Below are positions 438 to 63,000 of a stretch of 64,000 nucleotides of DNA, in pieces. Source of the DNA: Onthophagus taurus (lineage: Eukaryota; Arthropoda; Insecta; Coleoptera; Scarabaeidae); contig NC_091976.1 of NCBI RefSeq assembly GCF_036711975.1, positions 6,634,001-6,698,000 on the forward strand. Direction: 5' to 3'. Within the stretch, counting starts at the first letter, position 1, and each line of letters begins with the position of its first letter. A program made the translations under genes and the position numbers. The notes under the pieces are model-generated. The model saw only the letters and a list, made by a program, of their open reading frames with translations. It was not told where the DNA came from and made no database searches.

Positions 438-441
438 ATTT

Positions 442-473
442 GAGGCGTGTAGTAGCAAAACTCGCCTTATCCA
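442..473 (+). repeat. Left terminal inverted repeat
   Basis: This 32-bp repeat starts GAGGCGTGTAG and matches the reverse complement of 3131-3162 at every base. One further base pair (T441/A3163) also pairs but is better read as part of the ATTT duplication. Confidence 0.95.
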
Positions 474-907
474 GTTGAAGTAAATTTGAGAAAATCAAAA
501 TTTTAAGTTTTGAGCAATAAATTTTAGGAAAACAAATATAAAACCCAAATAAATATAGCTATTACGTTATGAAATGTTATCAACAATAGGTTCTCTATAA
601 TTGATTTTTATCCAGTTTGAAAAAGAAACAGTAATTTTATTTGAATAAGGCAAGTTTTGCTGTGTTATGAATGAATAGCAAGTTTTGTTATACCACAATA
701 TTCAATCAACAGACGGTTTTCTTAAAAAAATTTATTTATTATTTATTTTTTTGAACAATTTTGAATAATGAACACTAAATTGAAAATAATAATAATAAAA
801 TATTTTAAATTCTTAACAGGTTATCAACCTCTTGTGGTCTCCGTTCACAAAAACATGCTATGTCTTCTTCTTCTTCTTCTTGTTCTTTTAAAGATGATCT
901 ATCTAAA

Positions 908-2803
908 TCAACTACTAAAGGTATAAAAAAAACTCAAGTCTTGTCTTTCCATCCACCTATCACCAAAATGTTTTCTTAAAAGCTCCCTGACGTTACCGAC
1001 CTTTTTTTGATCCAAATCAACTCCCATTTCAATTTGATTTGGTGAGAAATAACTGAATGTTTTCCCTCTTTTTAATAATGACTTTGCAGTTCCAGTGTCA
1101 GAATTGTAATAAACCTCTCCACTAACAAGAATTAAATTTCTTTGACTTCTCGATAAAATAAATCTTTTTGCTTGCGAAAACTTAAAGTGCCACGCTTGAA
1201 CAGGTTTCAAAAATTCTTTAACGCTCAACTTCTCAATCTTTTACTTCACAATCCTTGCCCACCTGCACAACAATTCCATGCTCCTCAAAAATATTTCTAT
1301 AAATTTTAGGATCTATAATAGTTGATTCTTTCTTTAAAATTTTTTCAATGCGACCGAATATCCTATCAGATGGGAGATATGAATGTCCAGGCACCGGAAA
1401 AATCAATTCTATTGTTTTAACATTCAGAGGTGCCACATTTGCCAAAAAATAAGAACACATTCCTATCATTGTAGAATTCCGATTTTGTCCTCCACAACCA
1501 TCAGCGCATAGACGTATATTTGAATATGGTGAAAGATCGACTTGTGATAGGCAATGAAATACCGCTGATGATATCTCATTGGAACTTTTTTTATATTCAT
1601 GCTCCATCCACGTATAAATAAATACGTTTTCTGGGTTCATGTGACTTTTTGAAGAACCTCTTACAATGGTAAAATTATAGATGTATAGCTGCCGGCTGAA
1701 GTAGGCAATTTGATCTGGTATTTTTGGAATAACCAAATTTTTTTGGCAATCAAATGAAAATGTAATTAATTCATTTTTCTTTTCTTGTAGTTTTTTGAAA
1801 AACGCCGTTGCTTTTAATTTATGAACTCTTTTTTCTATAATTAATTTGTTTTTTTCATTAGGACGCATTTCCTGTTTTATTCTCTCCGACAGTTCGATGC
1901 ATTTGGAACATGCATCAGTTACCGGAGTTCCAAAGCCAATATTGTAATCATTAGTAAAAATTTTTTGAAAAAATGTTAGAATAGAATTAACATTGCTGTT
2001 ATAAGTGCGCCAAAGTTTTGAGATGCTTAATCCGCTAGGTAAATATTGTCTACTATCTGTTTTTGATCTACAATAGTGGCTTTCTACACATTTTAAATTT
2101 TCAATAAATCTTTTTACCGCAATTCGTTTCTCAACAAATTTTGTACTAATCCGGTCGCCCCCTCGGTTTTCTTTTGGCATTAGTCCTGTGTTTAAATGGT
2201 TTCTGCAAATTCTTTGTACACGATCTTTGGAAACGTGAAGAATCTGAAGAAATGTTTGTTGGCACACTTGAATTTTATATTTTTCATAGCGACATTTTTT
2301 CACAAAGTATTTTATTGCCACACTTTTTCGACTGCTTCCTTCTTTTAAATTTCGGTTTTGTCTTTTTGGTTTGTCGTGGCTACAGTATTTGAAAATAAAT
2401 GCATCCTGCTCAACTTTATTTTTATGCAAATAAAAATTCCGATGAAAATTGTAAATATCCAATCCTGTTAATTTTTTGCAGTGGAAGGTTTTGCCATTGT
2501 GCTTGCATATTGGGAAACATGGCAGATTAGGAGAGGAATATCTGAAGGAAATAAAGTTAAATTATTCTGCTGTGTATCATAGAATTTAATTTACTATTCG
2601 AAAAAATTAACTTCCCTTGTTAACATGTCGCCGAAAAATTATGAAACGGACAGATCGAGAACTTTTTGTACAAGCTTAGTAAATTCTTAAGAAAAAAGAG
2701 CTTACCTTTCACGCTTACTGATTTCTCTTTTCCATTTTGATTTATCGGCTATTTTTTTTCTTCCTTTCCCTTTTTTTGAGGGTAAAATAACATCTTGACT
2801 CAT
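908..2803 (-). pseudogene. Two-exon transposase-like gene (DDE/RNase H-like), frameshifted
   Basis: Exon 1 runs 2803-2706 (ATG; MSQDVILPSKKGKGRKK, a basic N-terminus) and ends at a consensus donor (GAAAG|GTAAGC). The intron is 2705-2542, and exon 2 begins at 2541 after TTTCCTTCAG; phases match and the frame continues into the long ORF. Exon 2 has a Cys/His-rich start (NLPCFPICKHNGKTFHCKK). Acidic positions that could form an RNase H-like catalytic set lie in TFSFDCQKN, LCADGCGGQNRN and GHSYLPSDRIFGRIEK. Near 1233 a stop is reached, and the frame continues one shift away at 1228-908 (WHFKFSQAKRFILSRSQRN), so a single frameshift breaks the 3' part. Multi-copy insect proteins with the CADGCGGQN motif are familiar to me, but I cannot assign a transposon superfamily. 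It lies wholly inside the TIRs, so it is the likely transposase. Confidence 0.78.
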
Positions 2804-3130
2804 ATTAGACATAATTTGTATGTACACAACACCAAAAACACGCTTAATAACTTATTAATAAAACAAACTATTAAAAAATTTAAATTAAAAATGGCCGCGT
2901 ATCAGAACCCTAGCTCACGTGATCGTGAATCGTTATTGCTATTGGACGCTTGGATAAGGCAACTTTTGCCGCGATACTCGCTATAAATATAGCGAGTTTT
3001 GATATGACAAGAAAATTTTAAAATGATTTTAAAAGGGTATATAGCATGTTTTTTAAAAAAATTATGATTGAATGTGTTGAAATTTATAAAAATAATGTAT
3101 TCCAATATCTAACTAAAATTTTGTAAAAAA

Positions 3131-3162
3131 TGGATAAGGCGAGTTTTGCTACTACACGCCTC
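3131..3162 (-). repeat. Right terminal inverted repeat
   Basis: This is the exact partner of 442-473 and ends in CTACACGCCTC. It is followed by ATTT, the same four bases that precede the left repeat. Confidence 0.95.
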
Positions 3163-3166
3163 ATTT

Positions 3167-3708
3167 ATAATTTCGTATTTGTTAGTGATAACAACCAAAA
3201 AACTATCAAAATTAGCATTAAAGAGAGTAAAATAGAATACCCCTCTAAAACTTTCAATTAAAATACATTATTATTAAATAAAAACGTGGGATCGAGATCA
3301 CCCTCTCATTATGTGAAAAAATCATATTTGTATTGAAAAAGCTTGAGGATCCATTAAGTTCACTCCAAATATCAAAATCACTATTTCGTATAACATATCT
3401 AAGAACCACCCGGAAATTCAGAGGACAAAGGGTCGAAATCACCCCCGAAATACGTAAAAAATTCATAACTTTCTTGAAAATGTTGTGAAACTTAGTCGAA
3501 AAATCAAAAATAACGTTTCGAATATCATATATTATCTATGAGACACACGGAAATTATGTTGATAAGGGTTGTATAATAATAATTGTATATATAAATAAAT
3601 GTAATTAAAACTGAATTTGGTCTAATGTGTAGTGATCTGAATAAACATGATCCCTTTCCGTAATATCATAAAGCGTTTTATATTACTCACACAAGCTTGC
3701 TTCGTCGT
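3167..3708. other. Unassigned AT-rich spacer with weak internal repetition
   Basis: No gene is supported. Two stretches resemble each other loosely (around 3293-3360 and 3430-3500: GATCACCCTC.., then GAAATCACCCCC.., each followed by a run such as GTGAAAAAATCAT or GTAAAAAATTCAT), suggesting a degraded repeat. Confidence 0.35.
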
Positions 3709-4465
3709 TCATTCCGTAATATTTACGTATAATTTTTTAATCCTAGAAGAACATATTTCACAATTGCCTTGTCTGCTATATTGGTTGTTTACATTATAGA
3801 CTGCTGCACTAAATGATATAAACGGAGTTAACATATCCCATTTCACATGGCACTCTGGTTTATCAACAGAACGGTACCGCTCACAAAAATCGTTTGTATT
3901 CCTTGTATTGTATATTTCTTGTAACTCATTTTTATAATGAATAACAAAATATTTTAGAGACATATTATTATCCAACGCAACATTTTTAATTGTACTTGAT
4001 GTGTTGAATAAACCTGCTTTATAGTGTTGACATGATGGGCAACTATAAACAAAGTTGCGAAGTTTAATTGTATCTATAGAAATTACATTACATATGTTCG
4101 AGCAACGATCTATATCAGTGGTTCTCAAACTATGGTACTCGTACCACTGATGGTACGCGAGAAGTTCTCAAGTGGTACGCAAAACAGTTTATATTTGCAT
4201 TATCATTATTGTTTTTTTTTGTTCAGTGGTACTTACCTGATTTTTAAAATAGCCTTAGTGGTACGCAAGGATATAAGTTTGAGAACCGCTGATCTATATG
4301 TAACCATCTGTTACATAAGTTGCAGCCTACATAATTTTCATGTGATCCTATACCACATTTAAAACATTTATCATACATAACGTGAGATGACAGTAATAAA
4401 ACATTTTGTAAAGAAATTCTAAAAAGGTCAGGATTAAAATTACTTTGTAATAATGATGTTGACAA
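3709..4465 (-). pseudogene. PHD-finger-like ORF split by a hAT MITE
   Basis: On the minus strand 4465-4300 encodes a zinc-finger start (CFKCGIGSHENYVGCNLC, then NRWLHID) and 4107-3709 continues it (RCSNICNVISIDTIKL, then VYSCPSCQ). The order of Cys and His pairs, with the W-L-H and C-P-S-C landmarks, fits a C4HC3 PHD finger. A second pair (CEICSSRIKK) sits near the C-terminus. Exactly between the two halves lies a 176-bp MITE with an 8-bp target duplication, and the frame is continuous if it is ignored. No clear start codon or further domain is seen. It may be a host-gene remnant or the ORF1 of a LINE; many LINE ORF1 proteins carry PHD-like fingers. Confidence 0.6.
4116..4291. mobile_element. 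hAT-type MITE, 176 bp
   Basis: The terminal inverted repeats are CAGTGGTTCTCAAACT (4116-4131) and its near reverse complement AGTTTGAGAACCGCTG (4276-4291). The 8-bp duplication ATCTATAT is at 4108-4115 and 4292-4299. An 8-bp TSD plus CAG-type ends is the hAT hallmark. Inside are several copies of GTGGTACGC or its variants. It has no coding capacity. Confidence 0.92.
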
Positions 4466-6643: not shown

Positions 6644-8050
6644 AACCTTTGAAAAAATAGTTGAATACTGTTCAAAATACGGCAGTTTAATTCCTCTCAG
6701 TTTTGTACTGGGTTTCTACGTAAACATCGTCATGACGAGATGGTGGAATCAATTCGAAACAATTCCATATCCGGATAATTTAGCAATGCTAATAAGCGCA
6801 AGTGTAAAAGGAAGAGTAAGTTTTAGAATAATCACATCTTTATTACACATTTATTTATTATCACTATTAAACTTTTCAGACTGAACATTGTCGAATAATT
6901 CGAAGAACATTAGCAAGATATGCTTGTTTAAGTTTCACAAGCACATTAACATTAATTTCACCAAAAGTTAAACGAAGATTTCCAACATTAAATCATATCA
7001 CAGAAGCCGGTTTAATGATGCCCGATGAAGAAAAAATAATGCGTGAACTTCAAGAAGAATATCCAAATTACCCTAGATTTTGGTTACCTTTAGCTTGGGC
7101 ATCAACTATAGCAGCTAAAGCTAGAGAAGAAGGATTAATTCAAACCGATCAATCATTGCAGGCAATTTTACACGAAATAAATACATTCAGAACAAAATGT
7201 GGGGGGTTATTAAGCTACGATTGGATCAGTATTCCTCTTGTTTATACCCAAGTCGTAACAATAGCAGTTTATAGTTATTTTGTAACATCAGTAATTGGCC
7301 AACAATATCTTTATACAAGCGATGAAATTGATATTTATTTCCCCGTTTTGGCTATTTTAGAATTTTTCTTTTATATGGGTTGGTTGAGAGTTGCAGAAAC
7401 TTTAATAAACCCATTCGGGGAAGACGATGATGATTGATTTCGACGTAGTTACAATGATCGATAGACATTTACAAGTTAGTTATTTAATCGTAGATAAAAT
7501 TCACGAAGAACATCCAAAATTAATGCAAGATCAATATTGGAATAGTTCAGTTCCGAGACATTTACCATACACAATTGGTTCGGAAAAATATATTGAAGAT
7601 ATTCCTAACCACTCAACTGATAAAATGACTGTTACTAAAGATGAAGCTGAAGTTTTACCACCTGGTGGTAAACGATCAAAATCTGATTCGTTTAAAAGAA
7701 ATCAACCATCTCTTATTAGAAGATTATTAAGAGGACAATCGCCATCAAATGACGATGATAAAGATAAAAGTATTATTGCATTGACTTCGATAGATGTTCC
7801 GGATAATAAACCTTCATCGCCAATTTCTTCATCGAATATTTCAACGTCAACGAAAACACAATTAGAAGAAGAGGATCGACCGGAAACGATTGATTTTGAA
7901 AAATTAAAAAATTTGAGACAACTGCTTTTAAAGCAAAAAGTCGTTAAATATATGGAATTGATGAAGGAACATACAAATGAAGAGGAAGGAAAGATTCTTG
8001 ATGAAATTTTACACATAAAGGAAGATGGGGATAATGAAATGCATTCATGA
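6644..8050 (+). CDS. Bestrophin (calcium-activated chloride channel), 3' exons, frameshift at the acidic clasp
   Basis: Bestrophins form pentameric chloride/bicarbonate channels of the plasma membrane gated by calcium. The exon 6644-6815 follows TTTTTTTTAG and ends at AGA|GTAAGT; it encodes PLSFVLGFYV and IVMTRWWNQFETIPYP, a family signature. The intron is 6816-6879. The exon from 6880 encodes SPKVKRRFPTLNH, EAGLMM, membrane segments near 7240-7310 and 7345-7420, and NPFGEDDDD. There a stop appears at 7435-7437, while the continuation DFDVVTMIDRHLQVSYLIVD is in the next frame (from about 7433) and runs to 8050 with HPKLMQDQYWNSSVP and a Ser/Asp-rich tail. The shift falls in a GAT run, and either a 1-base or a 4-base extra segment would explain it. 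All other splice and coding signals look maintained, so a sequencing error or a very young null allele is likely. The first exons (about 70 residues) are missing from the window. Confidence 0.9.
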
Positions 8051-11851: not shown

Positions 11852-13637
11852 TTATAATGTTGAATCAATTTTATATTTACATAATGAATTTAAAAATAGT
11901 AAATTGTTAACATTATTTGGCCCCAAACGATTTCTTTTCTCGGTAATTAAATTTCCCGCCATAGAAAATACTCGTTCAGAAGCAGCACTGCTCGCAGGAA
12001 TAGACAAAATTTGAATTGCAATTCTAAATAAATTGGGATATTCCGTTGCATGGTTATTCCATCATTTCAGTACATCAAAATTTACATCTACACTAATTTT
12101 TGATGTGCTATAACGTTGTACTTCGTCCTCTATTACTTCTCTATTGGACAGTTTACGCTTTTCAATTTCACTTGAGAAGAAAAAATTGAAATCCTCATCT
12201 TGTCTTTTAGTATTATTTTCAGAAATTGAAGAGTTTGTATGTATAATGTTGTCATTACATAAAATTGTGTCAATGCAAAAATCTTTCACACTGTTAATTA
12301 TATTTGGTTCTAAGAAAGAATTCGTTGGAGGATAAAGGAAGCAAGCTGCTTTGTGGTAGATGCTTAAATTTGGAAGCCACTTACTTTCAATCTGGTTCAA
12401 AATATTTTCTTTTAGTTTTCGTATAGGTGGGGTGTGTTCATTTACTTGTGTACATGTTTGTCTTAAACTATTCATTGAAAGGTATACATAATTAATGGTT
12501 ACATAATTTACTCCTTGCAGTTTCCTATTAATTATGTCAAATTTATCAAAAAGTTCAATCAAACTGTTTAACATTGGGAAATGTATATCTGTTAATCTAT
12601 ACATTTCATTGTTACCAGTAAGTATTTCATTTATTTTGAACCAATTTTTAAAATTTACTTGAATAAATTGTAGTAAGAATTCCAACGTGTAGAGCAATAG
12701 TTCTTTAATGATGTGTTTAACAGATGCTGCAAATTTGATTTTTTAAAATATTTGATCAATTTTTTACAGGTCTCAAATATTGGATGTAGCTCTTCTGTAT
12801 TTTGGAATGCAGCTTCCAATACATTGTTAAACAAATGATTAGCACAGTTTATGCGTTCGTGGTCCTTTAACGCTTTTATAATGTTGGAACTCCGATCACT
12901 TACAAATATCACATTTCTCATATCTTTAATTTCAAAATCCGATAAAAGTGATTTGATTTTTTTTGAAATATTTTCCGCGGTACATCTGTCCATATCCATT
13001 GTTTTGGTTCCTAGAACTAACTCTTTGAGGTGGCTATTTTCGTGAAAATGTAAAGTGGCGTATAAAAAGTTTCTTTTAACAAAATTGTCGGTCCATAGGT
13101 CACAAGTTATTGATACACCTTCGGCAATAATAGGGCGCAAATCACGAGTTATTTGTTTTTTTCTTTCCGTTGCCATGTCGTTTACATAACGTGATACTGT
13201 TGTTGAATTCGGAATCAGGTCATCAATGTTAATATTACTTCCATACTTTGCCCCAATATCGATCAATTTTTGAACTATTTTTTTGAAGCCCTTTCCATCT
13301 ACCGATGAAAAAGGCCGACAATCTTCAATCACCCACTGAGAACAGGCATGCAGTACACTCTCTGTGTTTTCAGTATTTACATGTGTTATTTCTCGTTCGC
13401 CAATATTATAACTTTCAATATAACATCTATGACGAACGAGGTTTGAGGTTTGCTTGCCATTATATTTTAAAATTTGTCGCACTTTCGGCAATAAACAATT
13501 CCATCTATTATACTGTCATCTTGTTTTTTAATAAGGCCAAATAAATTCCAAATTTTACTCACACTATTTGGTTTTGCTATTATATGATAATCACCAGTAT
13601 TGATTTTTATAATTATTTCAACTGTCGCCATATCCAT
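11852..13637 (-). pseudogene. hAT (Ac-like) transposase with BED finger, broken
   Basis: The minus-strand gene starts at ATG 13637. Residues 1-60 hold a BED-type finger (VSKIWNLFGLI, YCRKCDK, then NLVRHRCY) broken by a frameshift near 13470. 13491-12655 carries the catalytic core (GVSITCDLWTDNF, RNVIFVSDRSSNI, INCANHLFNNVL, STRWNSYYNL). A frameshift near 12690 leads to 12697-12062, which ends at an in-frame TGA (12062-12064). Reading on gives the hAT dimerisation domain (WNNHATEYPNLFRIAI, IPASSAASERVFSMAG, NRLGPNNVNNLLFL), ending at TAA 11854-11852. Thus a full-length transposase is disabled by two frameshifts and one nonsense codon. No TIRs were resolved for it. Confidence 0.85.
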
Positions 13638-15674: not shown

Positions 15675-17439
15675 GATAATAATAATAATAAATCCCTTTA
15701 TTTCTATAATGCTTACATGCATAGAAAACAGTCAAAAAAACAAAAAACCTTTACAATTAAGTAAATAACATTAATTAATTAATTATAATACCAATAAATT
15801 TACAAATTCAAATACAAAAAATCTAGTACAAAATAAAAATAAAAGATGTTAATAAACATATTTCTTAGTGGGTTGAAATATTTTCGAGAAAAAAATCATC
15901 TACCCTGTAAAAAGCTTTCGCGATTAAGAATTCTTTCAATCTTTTTTTAAATACATGTGATGGTAGAAATACATGCTTTCCAATCAAACGGTAAGTAATT
16001 GTGCAGTTTTATACAAAAATATAAAACACTTTTCTGTATTTTAGAATAATTAGTCTTCGGTGGTAGTAAAAATAATCGTTCAGTGCCTCTCGTTTGATGT
16101 TGATGAGATAATTCATATTTTGAGAAAAATTCATGGTAATTAGTTATAACAAAAAGTGCACATTCTAGAATAAACAAACATGGGAACGTGAGAATATTTT
16201 GTTCTGCGAAAAGAGCTCTACATGAGTCACGCGGACCCAGACCTAAAACCGTTCGTACACACTTCTTCTGAAGGATGAAAACACGTTCCGAGGTTACTGC
16301 ATTTCCCCAGAAAATAACTCCATATCTCAAACGCGATTCAACACACGCATAATAAACACTTAAAGCGACTCTCTCACCTACACATCGTGACACTGTTCGA
16401 AGCGCAAAACATGTTCTGGATAAACTAGTTGTCAACCCATCAATGTGTTGACTCCAGGAAAGGCGGCAGTCCATCTTTAAACCGAGGAACGTCACCTCCT
16501 GTTTATAGGTGAGTAGTTGTCCTCCAAACATTATTTCCATCTCAGGTGTTTTATTTGCAAAAATCATAAAAGTTGATTTTGCTATATTGAGCTGTAGATT
16601 ATTTCCTAACAACCATTCGTTTAGTTTTGTTACATTCTCTCTGACCATTCCTAAGACTGCTTCTTCACTTTTTCCAGATACAACAGAAGTTGAATCATCC
16701 GCAAATAATACCAGTAAACTATCAAGTACATCAGGCAAATCATTAATGTCCAGAAGAAACAAGAAAGGTCCCAAGACTGACCCCTGAGGTACTCCCTGAA
16801 ATACTTCTTTCCACTCAGACCTAACTTCTCCTCCCGAATCGCTGTATGACATAACACACTGGCTTCTGCCGTGTAAATAGGATTTTAACCAATCAAGGAC
16901 AACGCCGCGGAAACCCATTTTTTCCATTTTATTCAGAAGGATTTCATGATTCACACAGTCGAATGCTTTTGTTAGGTCCATAAAAATACAACCAGTGATA
17001 TCATTTTCATTGATAGCTGATGTATTTTTATCAAGTATCTGAAAAATTGCACGTGACATTGATCGTCCTTTTATATACCCATTTTGGGTATCATTTAGTA
17101 CTTTGTTTTTAATTACAAAATCCATTATTCTTCTCAATGCAATTTTTTCAAATATTTTTGCAATATTTGATATCAACGCAATAGGACGATAGTTTGAAAA
17201 AACCGATCGATCTCCTTTCTTATACAATGGTTTAATTACTGTTTTGTTAAGGCTTGCTGGAAAAACGCCCATAGAAAAGGACAAATTGATAACATTACTC
17301 AATGGTTCAGAGAGAGCATCAGAAGAGAACTTCAATAAGGCCACCGAAATCTCATCAAAGCTTACCGCTTTTGTATCATTTAAAGATTGTATTGTTTTTT
17401 GAACTTCTATTGCATCACTTAAATAAAATGCGAAAGTTT
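15675..17439 (-). pseudogene. Jockey/CR1-like LINE, reverse transcriptase and 3' end
   Basis: The open frame 17439-15947 spans most of the RT: KPLYKKGDRSVFSNYRPIAL, IFMDLTKAFDCVNHEILL, QGVPQGSVLGPFLFLLDIN, LVLFADDSTSVVSG (FADD catalytic box intact), NLQLNIAKSTFMIF, and the C-terminal YACVESRLRYGVIFWGN and RALFAEQNILTFPC. It is uninterrupted over about 490 codons, the best preserved RT in the window. Its 3' end is an (AATA)n-like tail at 15675-15692 on the minus strand. Upstream it is interrupted at 17440 by the foldback element and continues at 20580. Confidence 0.88.
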
Positions 17440-18748
17440 TAGATATTTGAGTGCGGGAAGCTAGCCCCCCATTTTTTGATTTTTAAATTTTTAATTGTTG
17501 TTCTAGATTGTTCTAGAGTTGTTCTACATTGTTCCAAAGCGGCAAACCGAAAAAATAAAAAGTCCGCGAGAAAACCGAAAAAACGGGTTTTTTGGCTAGC
17601 CCTCCATTTTTGGAAAAATCAAATTTTCTTTGTTGTTCTGAGTTGTTCTAGTTGTTCTAGTAATTGTTCTAGAAAATCAAAATTATGGGTTACAGCGTTA
17701 CGAAGTTATAACTAAAAATAGGTTTGGCCGCCGACATGTCTAGTTGATTGCTGTGACCATAGTTTTTCTATTATCAATTCCATATTACAAATATATACTT
17801 ATTATAGCTAACGCAATCTGGAACAGCTATTATTTTCACTAGAACAACTCTCTAAAGGGCACTTTACTCTTTGAAAATTAAAGTTTTTGGAAGTTTCAGT
17901 CAGTAATTCTTGTGTCAGCGGTTTTATATTACACAATAAGAATTAAAAAACCTAGACCAATCTAAAATAACTCAAATTTTGCCGATTCAAATTGTTCTAG
18001 ATGTGTTTTACGTTTAACAGGGACATTAATTTTGCAAAATCACATATTTTTTGTTGCTCTAAATTGTTCTTGTTCTTCTAGGTACTTAAAATGTTTATTT
18101 AATCACTGCGGCTTTAGTTCTTTTAAAGTTTCATATTAAAAATTAGTACTTATAACAATTAAAACAATTCAGAACAGCTGTTATTTTCACTAGAAAAACC
18201 TTAAATTTGAGTTGTTGTGATATCGGACAGGTTTTGTTGAATCAGCGAACCCAACCTTTAATATAATATAGTTTTAAATAATTAAAAAATATGGAATAAT
18301 CTGACCATCTAATTTTCTAAAAATCACGTTTCTCTGTAAACCTATAATAATAAAACATAAGTTGCGATTTAAAGTGTATTTTATTTTGTAAAACTAAGTA
18401 ATAAATAAACAAAACTAACAAACTAACAAAACAATAACTATTCTTTCACAAAAACTGTACAAAAACTTATTCTAATGTAAAGTATAACTAAATAAATTAA
18501 ATCATCTAAATAGACTAATATCACGGAACTCATTTACACACATATATGCACATTTGTGCATTTATTTTTGTTGCTTCTTCAACTTGTATGGATTTTTTTC
18601 TTAAATCATTAAATAATAACCAATTGGCATTATTGGGCACAAATGCCGTGTAGTGTCCTACATCACTCAAAGAGTGAGTAACTTCTTAGCTGATGATACT
18701 TGCGAAGATATAGACTTTGTTCTGGAGTTCTAAATTGTGGGGGTAATC

Positions 18749-25335: not shown

Positions 25336-27219
25336 CAGGGTGATTTATAACATACGGAGGAGACTAAATGGGTAGGTACTTGAGGTCAAACTGAAGAGAT
25401 TTTCTTAATAATGTTTTGTTAAAATCTTAATAGTTACATAGATATCGCATGTTAATTTTTTAAATAAGTTAGCGTCAACTTTTGAGAACCGCTGATATTC
25501 ACTAAAGAACAATTAAAATACTTGTCAACGCCATCCTCATTTTTGAAGGAGCTGTCAAAGTAGACATTTTAATTGTTTAGTTTTAATACGTAATTTATGA
25601 AAAGAAATAATAGATGTTAATTTATGAAATGGATAAAAATAATGTTTTAAATGCAAAATTACAAAATCTCTAAAACAAGAAAATAACATAATAATAATAA
25701 TCTCTTTATAACATATGTTCAAAGTGCTGTCCTTGCATTTCGACGCACAACTGCGCACGACGAATCCAATTTAACGATAATCGTGGAAATCGTGGACGTA
25801 TGTCCTCTGTAGCGGCAGTGATGCGATGTCGTAGTTGGTCGATTGTATTAACCTCGGTGGCATATACTCTATCCTTCATGAATCCCCATAAAAAAAGTCC
25901 AATGGGTTAAGATCAGGACTACGTGGTGGCCATGGAATAGGTCCACCTCGACCAATCCATTTTTGCCGAAAAGCATTATCGAGGAAATCTCGTACATTAC
26001 GACTAAAATGTGCAGGACAATCGTCGTGCATAAACCACATCTCACGTCGCATAAGTAGCGGAATATCTTCCAGGAGTACTGGCAGATTTTCTTGTAAAAA
26101 CTGTAAATAGGAAGTTCCATTAAGAGTTCCTGGTAATTCGAAAGGTATTGTATTCCTATTAACGTATTATTCACAATTCCCGCCCATAGATTCACTCTGA
26201 ATCGTTGTTGAAAAGAGCCTTGACGAATAACGTGTGGATTTTCGTCCGACCACACATGGGAATTGTGAACATTTAGAACACCATTTCTGGTACAACAGCA
26301 TTCATCCGTTACCAGTATACTGTCCGCAAAATCTGCTTCTCTGTTGGTACGATTTAGTAGCCACTCGCAAAATTGCAACCGCAAAGGATAGTCAGCGGGA
26401 GTCAGTCCTTGCACTTTTTGAAAATGATAGGGGTGTAAACCGTTACTTTTCAACGTACGCCAAACAAAATTCTGGGATACCTCGAGTTGGTGAGAAATTT
26501 GACGAGTACTCGTGCTTCGATCCGCTTCCACAATTTCTAGAATTTCTTCTTCCACATTCACTCCATGTCTGTTTAGTCTACCGCCACCAAGACCTTTCTT
26601 AGGTTGCAAATTTCCTCTCTCTTGCCCGCTCGATTAACCGAAGAAAAGTATTTTCTGAAGGGATCTGTCGATTTGGATATCGTTCTAAATACAGACGTCT
26701 TGCGTGTGCAGCGTTTTCTCCAGCTGCTCCATAAATAATAAGCATATCTACGTATTCTTCGTTACTGTACATTACCATTGTATTTTTTGATTAGTAAAAA
26801 TTCTAATTTTGACGTTAAATGACATTGATTATTAAAATTAAATGACATGTCCGTTGCTAGGTAACCAAGTCAACTGGATTGACAGCAATAAAAACATGGT
26901 ATCAGCGGTTCTCAGAAAACAAACACCAGTTTTTGAGTGATTTAACAAATTTTTAAATAGCCGTAACTGCCATATTACAAAGATTTTATTATTGGTGCTA
27001 ATCAGGCATTGCTTAAGTAACCCCGAAATATTCGCAGTTTGAATTTAAACGTAGTGTAATACCGTATATCGTAAGAAATGCTGGGCAATTAATTCAACTT
27101 TAATGCTCTATATCTTTGTGATTATTACATTGTAATCACAACATTATTAAGAAAATATCTTCAGTTTGGCCCCTAATACTTGCTCTTTTAATCTGCTCCG
27201 TATGTTATAAATCACCCTG
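25336..27219 (-). mobile_element. mariner/IS630-type transposon
   Basis: TIRs are CAGGGTGATTTATAACATAC (25336) and its complement ending ATCACCCTG at 27219; similarity extends about 80 bp inward. TA dinucleotides flank both ends (25334-25335, 27220-27221). It carries a transposase pseudogene on minus. Confidence 0.92.
25706..26778 (-). pseudogene. mariner/IS630-like transposase, frameshifted
   Basis: ATG at 26778 (MVMYSNEEYVDMLIIYGAAG) opens an N-terminal helix-turn-helix. A frameshift near 26620 leads into QPKKGLGGGRLNRHGVNVEE and SQNFVWRTLKSNGLHPYHF. The catalytic region has ILVTDECC, then after a second frameshift WFMHDDCPAHFSRNVRDFL and PPRSPDLNPLDFF (three Asp-containing motifs in order). 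A third shift near 25885 restores the end, EMQGQHFEHML and TAA at 25708-25706. All catalytic motifs are present but the frame is broken at least three times. Confidence 0.88.
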
Positions 27220-59884: not shown

Positions 59885-61166
59885 TAAATTTCTTTAATGA
59901 AAATAGTATTCTTTCTAAGAATCAATATGGCTTCACTGAGGGTAAATCAAAAGTGATGCCATTGTGGAACTTACAACAAAAGTTAAAAATAGTTTTGAGA
60001 AATCAAGGCCTTGCCTAGCTGTTTTTTTGGATCTAGCTAAAGCTTTTGACACGGTTGATCACAGTTTTTTGTTGCGTAAGCTTGATATTTATGGGGTGAG
60101 AGGTATAACTTTGAAATTAATGTGGGACTATCTGCACGAGAGATCTCAATATGTGAGGATTGGTCAAAGTCTCAGCTGTTCGGTATCGATGAATGTCGGA
60201 GTGCCACAGGGAACAGTTTTGGGTCCGCTTTTGTTTTTAATTTATATAAATGACTTGCTTTCATTAACACTCAATGGAGACTTAATCTCTTCTGCGGATG
60301 ATAACGTTCTGTTTGTGGAAGGCCGTTCTTGGGCGGATGTTGAAGATAAAGCTATAGCAGATTTGAGATTAATAAATAACTGGCTAAATAGCAGTAAACT
60401 TATTTTAAATGATAGCAAGTCATATTTTATGAGATTTACCATTAGAAAGGATACCACTAATAGCTTTTCTAGCCCTCCAATTCATGAAAATGATTGTTGT
60501 GTGGTAGATTGCAATTGTAAAAGGATTACATCTGTGCAAGTTGCTACTTATTTGGGTGTATTAATTGACAATCATTTGAGATGGAATGCTCATATTGCAA
60601 GGATGGTTGACAAGATTCGGCGTAGTACTTACATGTTCAAAAGATTACGTCATGTATGCGATTTCAAAACTATTAAGATATTTTATTTTGGAGTTATACA
60701 ATCAATCCTGCAATATGGCATTTTGGCATGGGGCTCTGCAGCTGATTCTTACCTTCAGAAATTAATTACGTCTCAAAAAGGTGTTATAAAAATAATGATG
60801 CATAGGCCCCGTACTTTCCCAACTGCGTTGTTGTTTGCTGAGTGTGACTTATTTACTATTAAACAGTTATACACCTTAGCAATTATGAATAACATTTTAA
60901 AATCACCGGACCGATTGGCGACTGTCTCACATGGTTACTCTACTCGGATTGCATCCCAGAATCGTGCTATTATACCGCCCGTAAATAAGACTGTAGGTCA
61001 AAGACATAACTCTTACCATTCCATTAAAATATATAATAAGTTTAGGGAATACCTAACAGCAGAGAACCTTACGTTGGTGAAATCTAGGTGGAAATACTTT
61101 TCAAAAAGATGGGTGAAATCACTTAATGATGGCGTGATAGATGGAATTTTTTCAATTATGGTTTAG
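59885..61166 (+). pseudogene. LINE ORF2 reverse transcriptase, N-part deleted
   Basis: Starts with SILSKNQYGFTEGKS (RT motif 2 region), then a frame change into CLAVFLDLAKAFDTVDHSFL, NVGVPQGTVLGPLLFLIYIN, LISSADDNVLFVEG (catalytic box Y/F-A-D-D has become S-A-D-D), KLILNDSKSYFMRFT, and LRWNAHIARMVDKIRRSTY. It ends QSLN..GIFSIMV at 61166. Everything between the nuclease and RT motif 2 is missing. The 3' flank ends in AAATAAATAATAATAACAATG (61415-61434). Confidence 0.86.
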
Positions 61167-61432: not shown

Positions 61433-63000
61433 ATGAATATCGAAAATGAAACTGGGAGTAGTGGTGAATCGGAGGTTGATGAACAAGTTGATTTGGATAC
61501 GACAGAGGAATCTAAAGTTGAAGCTATTGATACAGCAGATGATCAATCCGATGAACCTAATGTTGATGTGGTTTATGACAATTGCTACTACCCCTCAATA
61601 AAAGACTTTACTGGACAAGCTTGCATTATTGAAAATATTTCAATAAAAGGCGATACTCCATTAAATTATTTTGATTTTTTTTTGATTCGTTTCTCCTAGA
61701 TACCATTAGAATACAAACCAATATTTATCAAGACCAGAATCCCGAAAAAAATCGTGTACATATGAAGCCGTGGAGCCCCGTGACCGAAAATGAATTACGT
61801 ATTTTTTTTGCATTATCAATTAATATGGGACACGTTCGAAAAAATGCATTGAAAGACTATTGGAGCAAAGATCCTCTTCTTCTAACTTCAATATTTGGGG
61901 ACTATATGTTGCGAAATAGATATCTACAAATTCTGCAATATCTTCATTTTGCTAATAATGAAGATGTAATAAATCATTCTTTGAAAAAAGTAAAACCAGT
62001 AATTGACTATCTAAAAAATAAGTTTTCTAATACCATCAATACAGGAAGAAATCTTTGTATAGATGAAAGCTTACTCTTGTGGAAAGGACGACTAAAGTTC
62101 AAGCAGTACTTACCTCTCAAAAGAAAACGTTTTGGTATCAAATTGTTTGAACTGGTGGACTGTGAAACCGGATTTTTACTTGATTTTATTGTGTATACTG
62201 GCTCAGGCACAGATTATGATAAATTTAACTTAGTAGTTTCGGGGGATATCGTGGCTCATTTCATGATACCATATCATAATAAGGGTCATATTTTATTTAT
62301 TGATAAGTGGTACTCATCACCACAGCATGCAGAATTTCTGCAAAGCCGAGATACAGGGGTTTGCGGAACTGTAAAAAAAAAATCGAAAACGAATGCCCGT
62401 TTTGAAATCCAAGCTAAACCGTGGTGAAGTAGAAGTTGCCCACACCGACGTCTGGATAGTACTGAAATGAATGGATAAAAAAGAAGTTTTTGTCATAACA
62501 ACAGTTCATGAAGTCGACTTTTGTGCAACTGGTAAAAAAAACTATAAAACTCAGCAAGACATTATAAAACCACGTTGTATTCATGACTACAATAAAAATC
62601 TTTGACGGAGACGGTGAGAAAATCAATGAAGTGGTACCGAAAACTATTTTTCCATCTGCTTGATTTGATATTGATGAATGCGCATGTACATTCATGATCA
62701 AAACTAAGCAAAAAGCGTCCTTTTCCAACTTTCGTTTATGTGTAGTAAAGGATTTATTGAAATTAGATTCTAATGAACCGTCGCCTTCATCATCTGGTGT
62801 CGATCTTCGACTACAGGGGCGCCATTTTCCCACAAAAATTGCAAATGAAACCTCACAACAAAAATCTTTGCAACGTAATTGTGTATTATGCGCAATGTCT
62901 AAACAAATGCGCTGAACTGCGTACCAATGTAATGTATGTCATAAAAGTTTATGTGTCGCACCATGTTTCGAAACATATCATACAAAAACTAAATTGCCAT
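61433..63000 (+). pseudogene. piggyBac transposase pseudogene
   Basis: Begins at ATG 61433 with an acidic N-terminus (SSGESEVDEQVDLDTTEES). 61762-62427 holds MKPWSPVTENELRIFFALS, NLCIDESLLLWKGRLKFKQ (first Asp), FGIKLFELVDCETGFLLDF, HILFIDKWYSSPQHAEFL (second Asp). A frameshift at about 62410 then gives EVEVAHTDVWIVLK, a TGA where Trp is expected, and MDKKEVFVITTVHEVDF (third Asp). The C-terminal Cys-rich segment (RNCVLCAMSKQMR, YQCNVCHKSLCVAPCF) closes the family layout, with a further stop. Strong family match but dead. The LINE ends exactly where this one starts. Confidence 0.88.

Follow-up and report, generated by a model that had tools for sequence, protein, structure and literature searches.

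The 64,000-nt stretch of Onthophagus taurus DNA analysed here, referred to as the window, contains a 2,721 bp transposon at positions 442–3162 that carries a gene for a DUF7869 protein on the minus strand and is probably a member of Sola2 (Table 1). Its 32 bp terminal inverted repeats (TIRs) are exact reverse complements of each other over all 32 nucleotides, and ATTT is found directly outside both of them as a 4 bp target-site duplication (TSD). In addition to the two TIR copies, the TIR motif GATAAGGCGAGTTTTGC occurs at three interior sites when up to four mismatches are allowed, as compared with a mean of 0.04 and a maximum of one per sequence in 300 Markov sequences, and the subterminal copy nearest to the left end is a probable candidate for a transposase-binding site. 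A first-pass annotation of the same DNA had described a complete TIR transposon with perfect 32 bp ends, an ATTT duplication and subterminal motif copies; all of this was borne out, the completeness of the element by identical boundaries and perfect 4 bp TSDs in all six copies that could be read at both ends.

Table 1. Positions in the window of the DUF7869 element, its parts and the other features detected.
Feature	Position	Strand	Basis or remark
TSD, left, ATTT	438–441	.	Sequence comparison
Whole element, complete, 2,721 bp	442–3162	−	TIRs and TSD
TIR, left, 32 bp, GAGG..., AAAA at position 16 from the edge	442–473	+	
Motif GATAAGGCGAGTTTTGC, subterminal, 2 mismatches	644–660	+	Putative transposase-binding site
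Exon 2	908–2541	−	In frame to the stop ending at 1233, rest in another frame
Third conserved Asp codon (PSDRIFG; D432)	1365–1367	−	Alignment
Second conserved Asp codon (CADGCGGQN; D387)	1500–1502	−	Alignment
First conserved Asp codon (SFDCQ; D304 of P0001)	1749–1751	−	Alignment
Intron, 164 nt, GT...AG	2542–2705	−	Predicted splice
Exon 1, ATG at 2812	2706–2812	−	Predicted splice; N terminus of P0001 matched
Motif GATAAGGCGAGTTTTGC, subterminal, 2 mismatches	2953–2969	+	Putative role
Motif GATAAGGCGAGTTTTGC, subterminal, weaker, 4 mismatches	2986–3002	+	Putative role
TIR, right, 32 bp	3131–3162	−	Reverse complement identical to left TIR
TSD, right, ATTT	3163–3166	.	
Bestrophin gene, part	6871–7437		Pfam (E 4e-75); probably belongs to the host
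Hermes-type DNA-binding domain, in 12655–13515	12062–13515		Pfam; adjoining ORF 12062–12742 without match
Reverse-transcriptase ORF	15947–17482		Pfam
Tc3-type transposon remains	25869–26633		Pfam
Reverse-transcriptase ORF	59946–61166		Pfam
DDE_Tnp_1_7 (which we take to be the piggyBac model) transposon remains	61675–62427		Pfam

The element has a single gene, for which two exons were predicted from the sequence. The predicted splice yields the N terminus of the O. taurus database protein P0001 (580 aa), to which the window ORF is 98% identical, and the motifs singled out earlier (SFDCQ, CADGCGGQN and GHS..PSDRIFGRIE) are all present in this ORF. The two-exon gene of the first-pass annotation thus stood as regards its splice, but in the window copy the frame is broken after 471 aa by the stop at 1233 and the remaining coding part lies in a different frame. 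The window copy is therefore a complete but coding-defective element. Intact copies of the gene are present at other places in the beetle genome, and the window copy could move only with the enzyme supplied by one of these.

The element is hosted by a surrounding repeat of ∼200 bp (window ∼362–441 and 3163–3284), of which nine head-to-head pairs, 3.9–13.3 kb apart, occur in the genome; these paired repeats look like the terminal inverted repeats of some larger mobile element. A 152-aa open frame directly to the right of the element (window 3709–4167) gave no Pfam match.

A search with the window ORF alone returned 580 database proteins at E-values up to 0.001. Among the matches listed most had no name, and the others mainly bore the labels uncharacterised, unnamed, hypothetical or DUF7869, in agreement with the earlier view of a mostly unnamed insect protein family. 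A few DUF7869 proteins bear unrelated public names, such as ‘chaperonin’ for P0175 of Candidatus Magnetoglobus multicellularis and RNA polymerase subunit for P0031 and P0041 of the beetle Holotrichia oblita, which are probably misannotations. The NCBIfam models gave no match with DUF7869 proteins; against solved structures, profile searches gave only E-values of 0.38 or worse and a single-sequence search gave none. A literature search found no paper mentioning DUF7869, PF25273 or LOC111419015, and with the protein motif strings it returned no transposon paper, as judged by titles.

In order to define the family to which the window copy belongs, the genome (290.8 Mb, 33 contigs) was searched with the TIR, which yielded eight copies having a TIR end ≥94% identical to it; nine further places matching the TIR start with two to three mismatches were left uncounted. 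Both ends were recovered in six of the eight copies, three of which have other DNA inserted, and one end only was present in the DNA examined of copies C3 and C10. The boundaries of all six two-ended copies were identical and each was flanked by a perfect 4 bp TSD (ATTT, AAAT, ATTT, AATT, ATAT and ATAT), with a single-base difference in two of the 12 TIRs. For L053 and the weak TIR matches L032–L035, a second end with a TSD was not found in the DNA examined. The first-pass annotation had proposed an alignment of 10 or more copies and had regarded a different TSD or boundary in other copies as evidence against its reading; the family holds eight copies with strong TIRs, and all six that could be read at both ends agree. 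Pairwise divergence among the copies was 1.2–2.5%, and because these differences are small and alike throughout, the family is young.

Empty sites, which had been suggested as a further check, were found both for the window flanks and for other insertions. When the window flanks were joined with a single ATTT and matched against the genome, 27 of the 67 places reported crossed the junction, 16 of them with equal query and match length (as judged by lengths and not by letters), and many of the 27 are copies of one repeat. For three insertions of the sister families described below the letters of uninterrupted target copies were read, revealing one ACTT for L067, one ACAT against ATAT for L064 and one AATT for L049; a gapped match of L057 (74%, 41 gaps) was left out of this set. 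The empty sites agree with, and confirm, the 4 bp duplication.

A DUF7869 profile scan of the beetle genome, in which 150 of 535 candidates were scored, gave at least 150 matches above the cut-off, and four further DUF7869 families were defined whose TIRs differ from those of the window family and which likewise have 4 bp TSDs. Family C (GAGTGGTGTAGATGCAAAACTC...) had perfect TSDs in three of three cases. Family B (GAGTTGTTTGG...) comprises ∼34 copies by TIR ends, with elements of ∼1.7 kb that were 94–99% alike among the copies compared. From this family 16 loci (L055–L070) were sampled, and 13 of the 14 two-ended copies had perfect TSDs, the flanks of the remaining one, L065, being AAAT and AAAG; one end was found for L056 and none for L068. 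The family B ORF of ∼400 aa spans the region of the conserved aspartates and is devoid of the N-terminal part of its match. Family B is hence a shortened derivative with a copy number above that of the window family, and its elements are probably mobilised in trans. The other two families are represented by L073, a single 2,513 bp element with the TSD AATT, and by L071/L072, one insertion within a duplicated segment whose TSD ATAT was read by eye; as both of these TSDs are palindromic, they are indistinguishable from extended TIRs. Taken together, 24 of the 25 two-ended insertions of the five beetle families had a perfect 4 bp TSD, and these duplications indicate a clear target preference, 23 of the 24 conforming to ANNT and 18 to AWWT. 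Those outside AWWT were AAGT (twice), ACAT (twice) and ACTT, all of the ANNT type, and TTTT (once).

Relatives were also detected in bacteria. In a scan of prokaryote genomes, 101 pattern matches contained nine relatives. One of the nine loci lies on a 147.8 kb contig of the cultured Desulfocicer vacuolatum DSM 3385; the others, including Candidatus Thiomargarita nelsonii, Desulfobacterales and Legionellales, are mostly metagenome-derived or on short contigs, for which misbinning is possible. Seven of the nine loci proved to be elements with two TIRs of ∼40 bp or more, and in six of these seven one ORF of 635–668 aa fills most of the element, the open frame of L077 being 310 aa. Perfect TSDs flank three of the seven (AAAT in L074, ATTT in L077 and AATT in L081), and the left and right flanks of L075, L078, L079 and L080 differ at one or two bases; with the edge defined as the first G, all 14 bacterial flanks read ANNT. 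The Desulfocicer element (L079:4602–6717), with TIRs of ∼39 bp, is a probable insertion sequence; its flanks, AAAT on one side and ATTT on the other, do not agree as a direct TSD. Since each of the seven bacterial genomes searched gave a single match, the evidence for mobility in bacteria comes from the element ends alone. Within one phylum, one of 297 sampled genomes had a relative, and that one was the genome on which the search had been centred. Viral contigs yielded 15 and 80 pattern matches with no relatives among them, and nothing was matched in plasmids, for which the Desulfocicer protein served as the sole query. Homology between the insect and bacterial proteins is evident from a profile–profile alignment of the insect-query and bacterial-query sets that extended over 419 columns with a probability of 99.5% (E 8e-23).

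Conservation was examined in a combined alignment of 82 sequences, 54 rows from a mainly insect-query set (A2) and 28 from a bacterial-query set (A3), the two sets being defined by query and not by the source organism of each row. The aspartates D304, D387 and D432 of P0001 are present in 53, 52 and 52 of the 54 A2 rows and in 28 of 28 A3 rows each, whereas at the position of the other candidate acid, E439, every one of the 28 A3 rows has K or R. The 419-column profile alignment agrees on D387 and D432 and leaves D304 unpaired with the bacterial D365, a pairing that derives from the 82-sequence alignment. On the strength of this conservation we infer that D304, D387 and D432 constitute a catalytic DDD triad. 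A set of cysteines and histidines (C48, C57, C129, C251, C254 and H280) is kept as well and may bind zinc.

The ends of the elements were compared as well. The termini usually given for Sola2 are GRG; those observed here are GAG in four of the five beetle families (L071 starts with CGA), and with the edge set at the first G, each of the seven bacterial elements has GGG at one end or at both. Taking one end from each of 12 lineages (five beetle families and seven bacterial loci), a run of A residues starts at position 16 from the edge as AAA in 12 of 12 and as AAAA in 11 of 12, a result reached in 0 of 20,000 rotation controls. When both ends are considered, the run is found at position 16 in 23 of 24, in 21 as AAAA, the right end of family B being the sole exception. 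The bacterial edge rule, i.e. the first G after the ANNT flank, was fixed after the pattern had been noticed, and moving three bacterial edges by one or three bases lowers the count to 17 of 24, so that the result depends on edge placement. Moreover, because related lineages are not independent, a cautious count treats beetles and bacteria as two events that share one offset out of ∼25, a coincidence of ∼1 in 25. The A-run thus gives a lead, though no proof, that bacteria and animals have retained a common site for end recognition. Tentatively, and with more doubt than conviction, we propose that the DUF7869 lineage of beetles and bacteria has one end plan, in which the edge is mostly GRG, the A-run begins exactly 16 nt inside it and the target is ANNT, that its bacterial members form an unannotated insertion-sequence family, and that the lineage either provides Sola2 with a bacterial root or is a superfamily of its own.

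The DUF7869 protein is most probably the transposase of these elements. Its N-terminal part probably binds the TIRs and the subterminal repeats, and a DDD active site of D304, D387 and D432, presumably housed in an RNase H-like domain, would carry out excision. Insertion takes place through a 4 bp staggered cut at AWWT-like sites, as the TSDs and the empty sites show. That the protein is instead a passenger whose element is moved in trans by the transposase of others appears highly improbable: catalysis by the DUF7869 protein is deduced from sequence and family B, without the N-terminal part, is itself probably mobilised in trans, but the DUF7869 gene is the only sizeable one in the element, families whose TIRs differ carry it as well, it is the sole large ORF in six of the seven bacterial elements, and the three aspartates are kept throughout. 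With the DUF7869 protein as the transposase, movement would be by cut-and-paste. TSDs and TIRs would fit a DDD transposon moving by copy-out through a circle intermediate equally well; we nevertheless think this route improbable, as eukaryotic superfamilies with TIRs are usually taken to move by cut-and-paste.

As to the superfamily, Sola is characterized in the available excerpts of the literature by a DDD transposase, a 4 bp TSD, TIRs of 11–1124 bp, a size of mostly 2–9 kb and a range from bacteria to metazoa (PMC10741241); it is counted among the RNase H-like proteins (PMC3985635) and among the widespread arthropod DNA transposons (PMC6327564), and the TSDs of Sola2 are AWWT, e.g. ATAT, AAAT and ATTT (PMC3627910). 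The DUF7869 elements have three aspartates of putative catalytic role common to A2 and A3, a 4 bp TSD in 24 of 25 beetle insertions (perfect in three of seven bacterial elements), 32 bp TIRs in an element of 2,721 bp, and a range that covers insects and nine bacterial loci, though they are rare in bacteria; AWWT-type TSDs occur in six of six cases in the window family and in 18 of 24 over all families. Because of the DDD triad, the AWWT-like 4 bp TSD and the bacteria-to-animal range, we file them as probably Sola2, a known though sparsely described group within the superfamily Sola, an assignment made by features and not by reference proteins, in which we have good though not full confidence. 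It is unlikely that they form a separate, unnamed superfamily, made up of a eukaryotic group and a bacterial insertion-sequence family and resembling Sola in TSD and DDD only. Such a reading would account for the lack of a match to any named family and for the silence on DUF7869 and PF25273 in the literature searched, and no such prokaryote–eukaryote pair is named in the available excerpts of PMC10045372 and PMC9587614; however, the published diagnostics of Sola and Sola2 that could be tested agree with the elements, and the range of Sola has already been said to take in bacteria (PMC10741241, in excerpt).

Other named superfamilies were considered and rejected. In the Pfam scan of six proteins DUF7869 was the only model above the cut-off in all six, with no match to the models of hAT, PIF/Harbinger, Tc1/mariner, piggyBac or Mutator, and in neighbouring window ORFs the same library did detect the Hermes, Tc3 and DDE_Tnp_1_7 models; the clear alignment to hAT, PIF or Mutator that would have spoken against the first-pass annotation was accordingly absent. 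In hAT, P, MuDR, Kolobok and Dada, a C/DxxH motif lies between the second D and the last catalytic acid (PMC9587614, in excerpt), but the sole histidine between D387 and D432 of P0001, H426, has Val at −3. The earlier verdict of an unclear superfamily that is not well described is borne out only in part: the protein already has a Pfam grouping, DUF7869, albeit one with no function assigned, and the diagnostics tested point to Sola2.

Although the element is ordinary in itself, it is useful for annotation, as naming DUF7869 proteins transposases would clean up gene sets. What is new here is the link of DUF7869 to elements with defined ends in a beetle and in bacteria, together with the shared end design. 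With the bacterial elements and the common ends at hand, one can test whether bacteria and animals have retained a single transposition machinery or passed it from one to the other.

Among known systems, piggyBac and Kolobok have a 4 bp TSD in common with the beetle elements, but their target is TTAA (PMC9587614, in excerpt), which was found in none of the 24 perfect TSDs, and no such model was matched. IS481EU resembles the present elements in the 4 bp TSDs of some families and in its eukaryote–prokaryote link, and differs in the TGT...ACA termini of the H. meleagridis families described and in its mixed TSD lengths (PMC10045372, in excerpt). The elements resemble Sola2 in the DDD triad and the AWWT-like 4 bp TSD, in having TIRs and a length of a few kb, and in their occurrence in bacteria and animals; for dictyostelids, one Sola2 transposase, 888 aa long, is reported together with TIRs of 12–21 bp (PMC3627910), as compared with 580 aa and 32 bp here. 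Pfam PF25273 (DUF7869), which is matched above the cut-off by the window protein, the sister families and the bacterial relatives, is a name without a function that is here tied to elements with defined ends.
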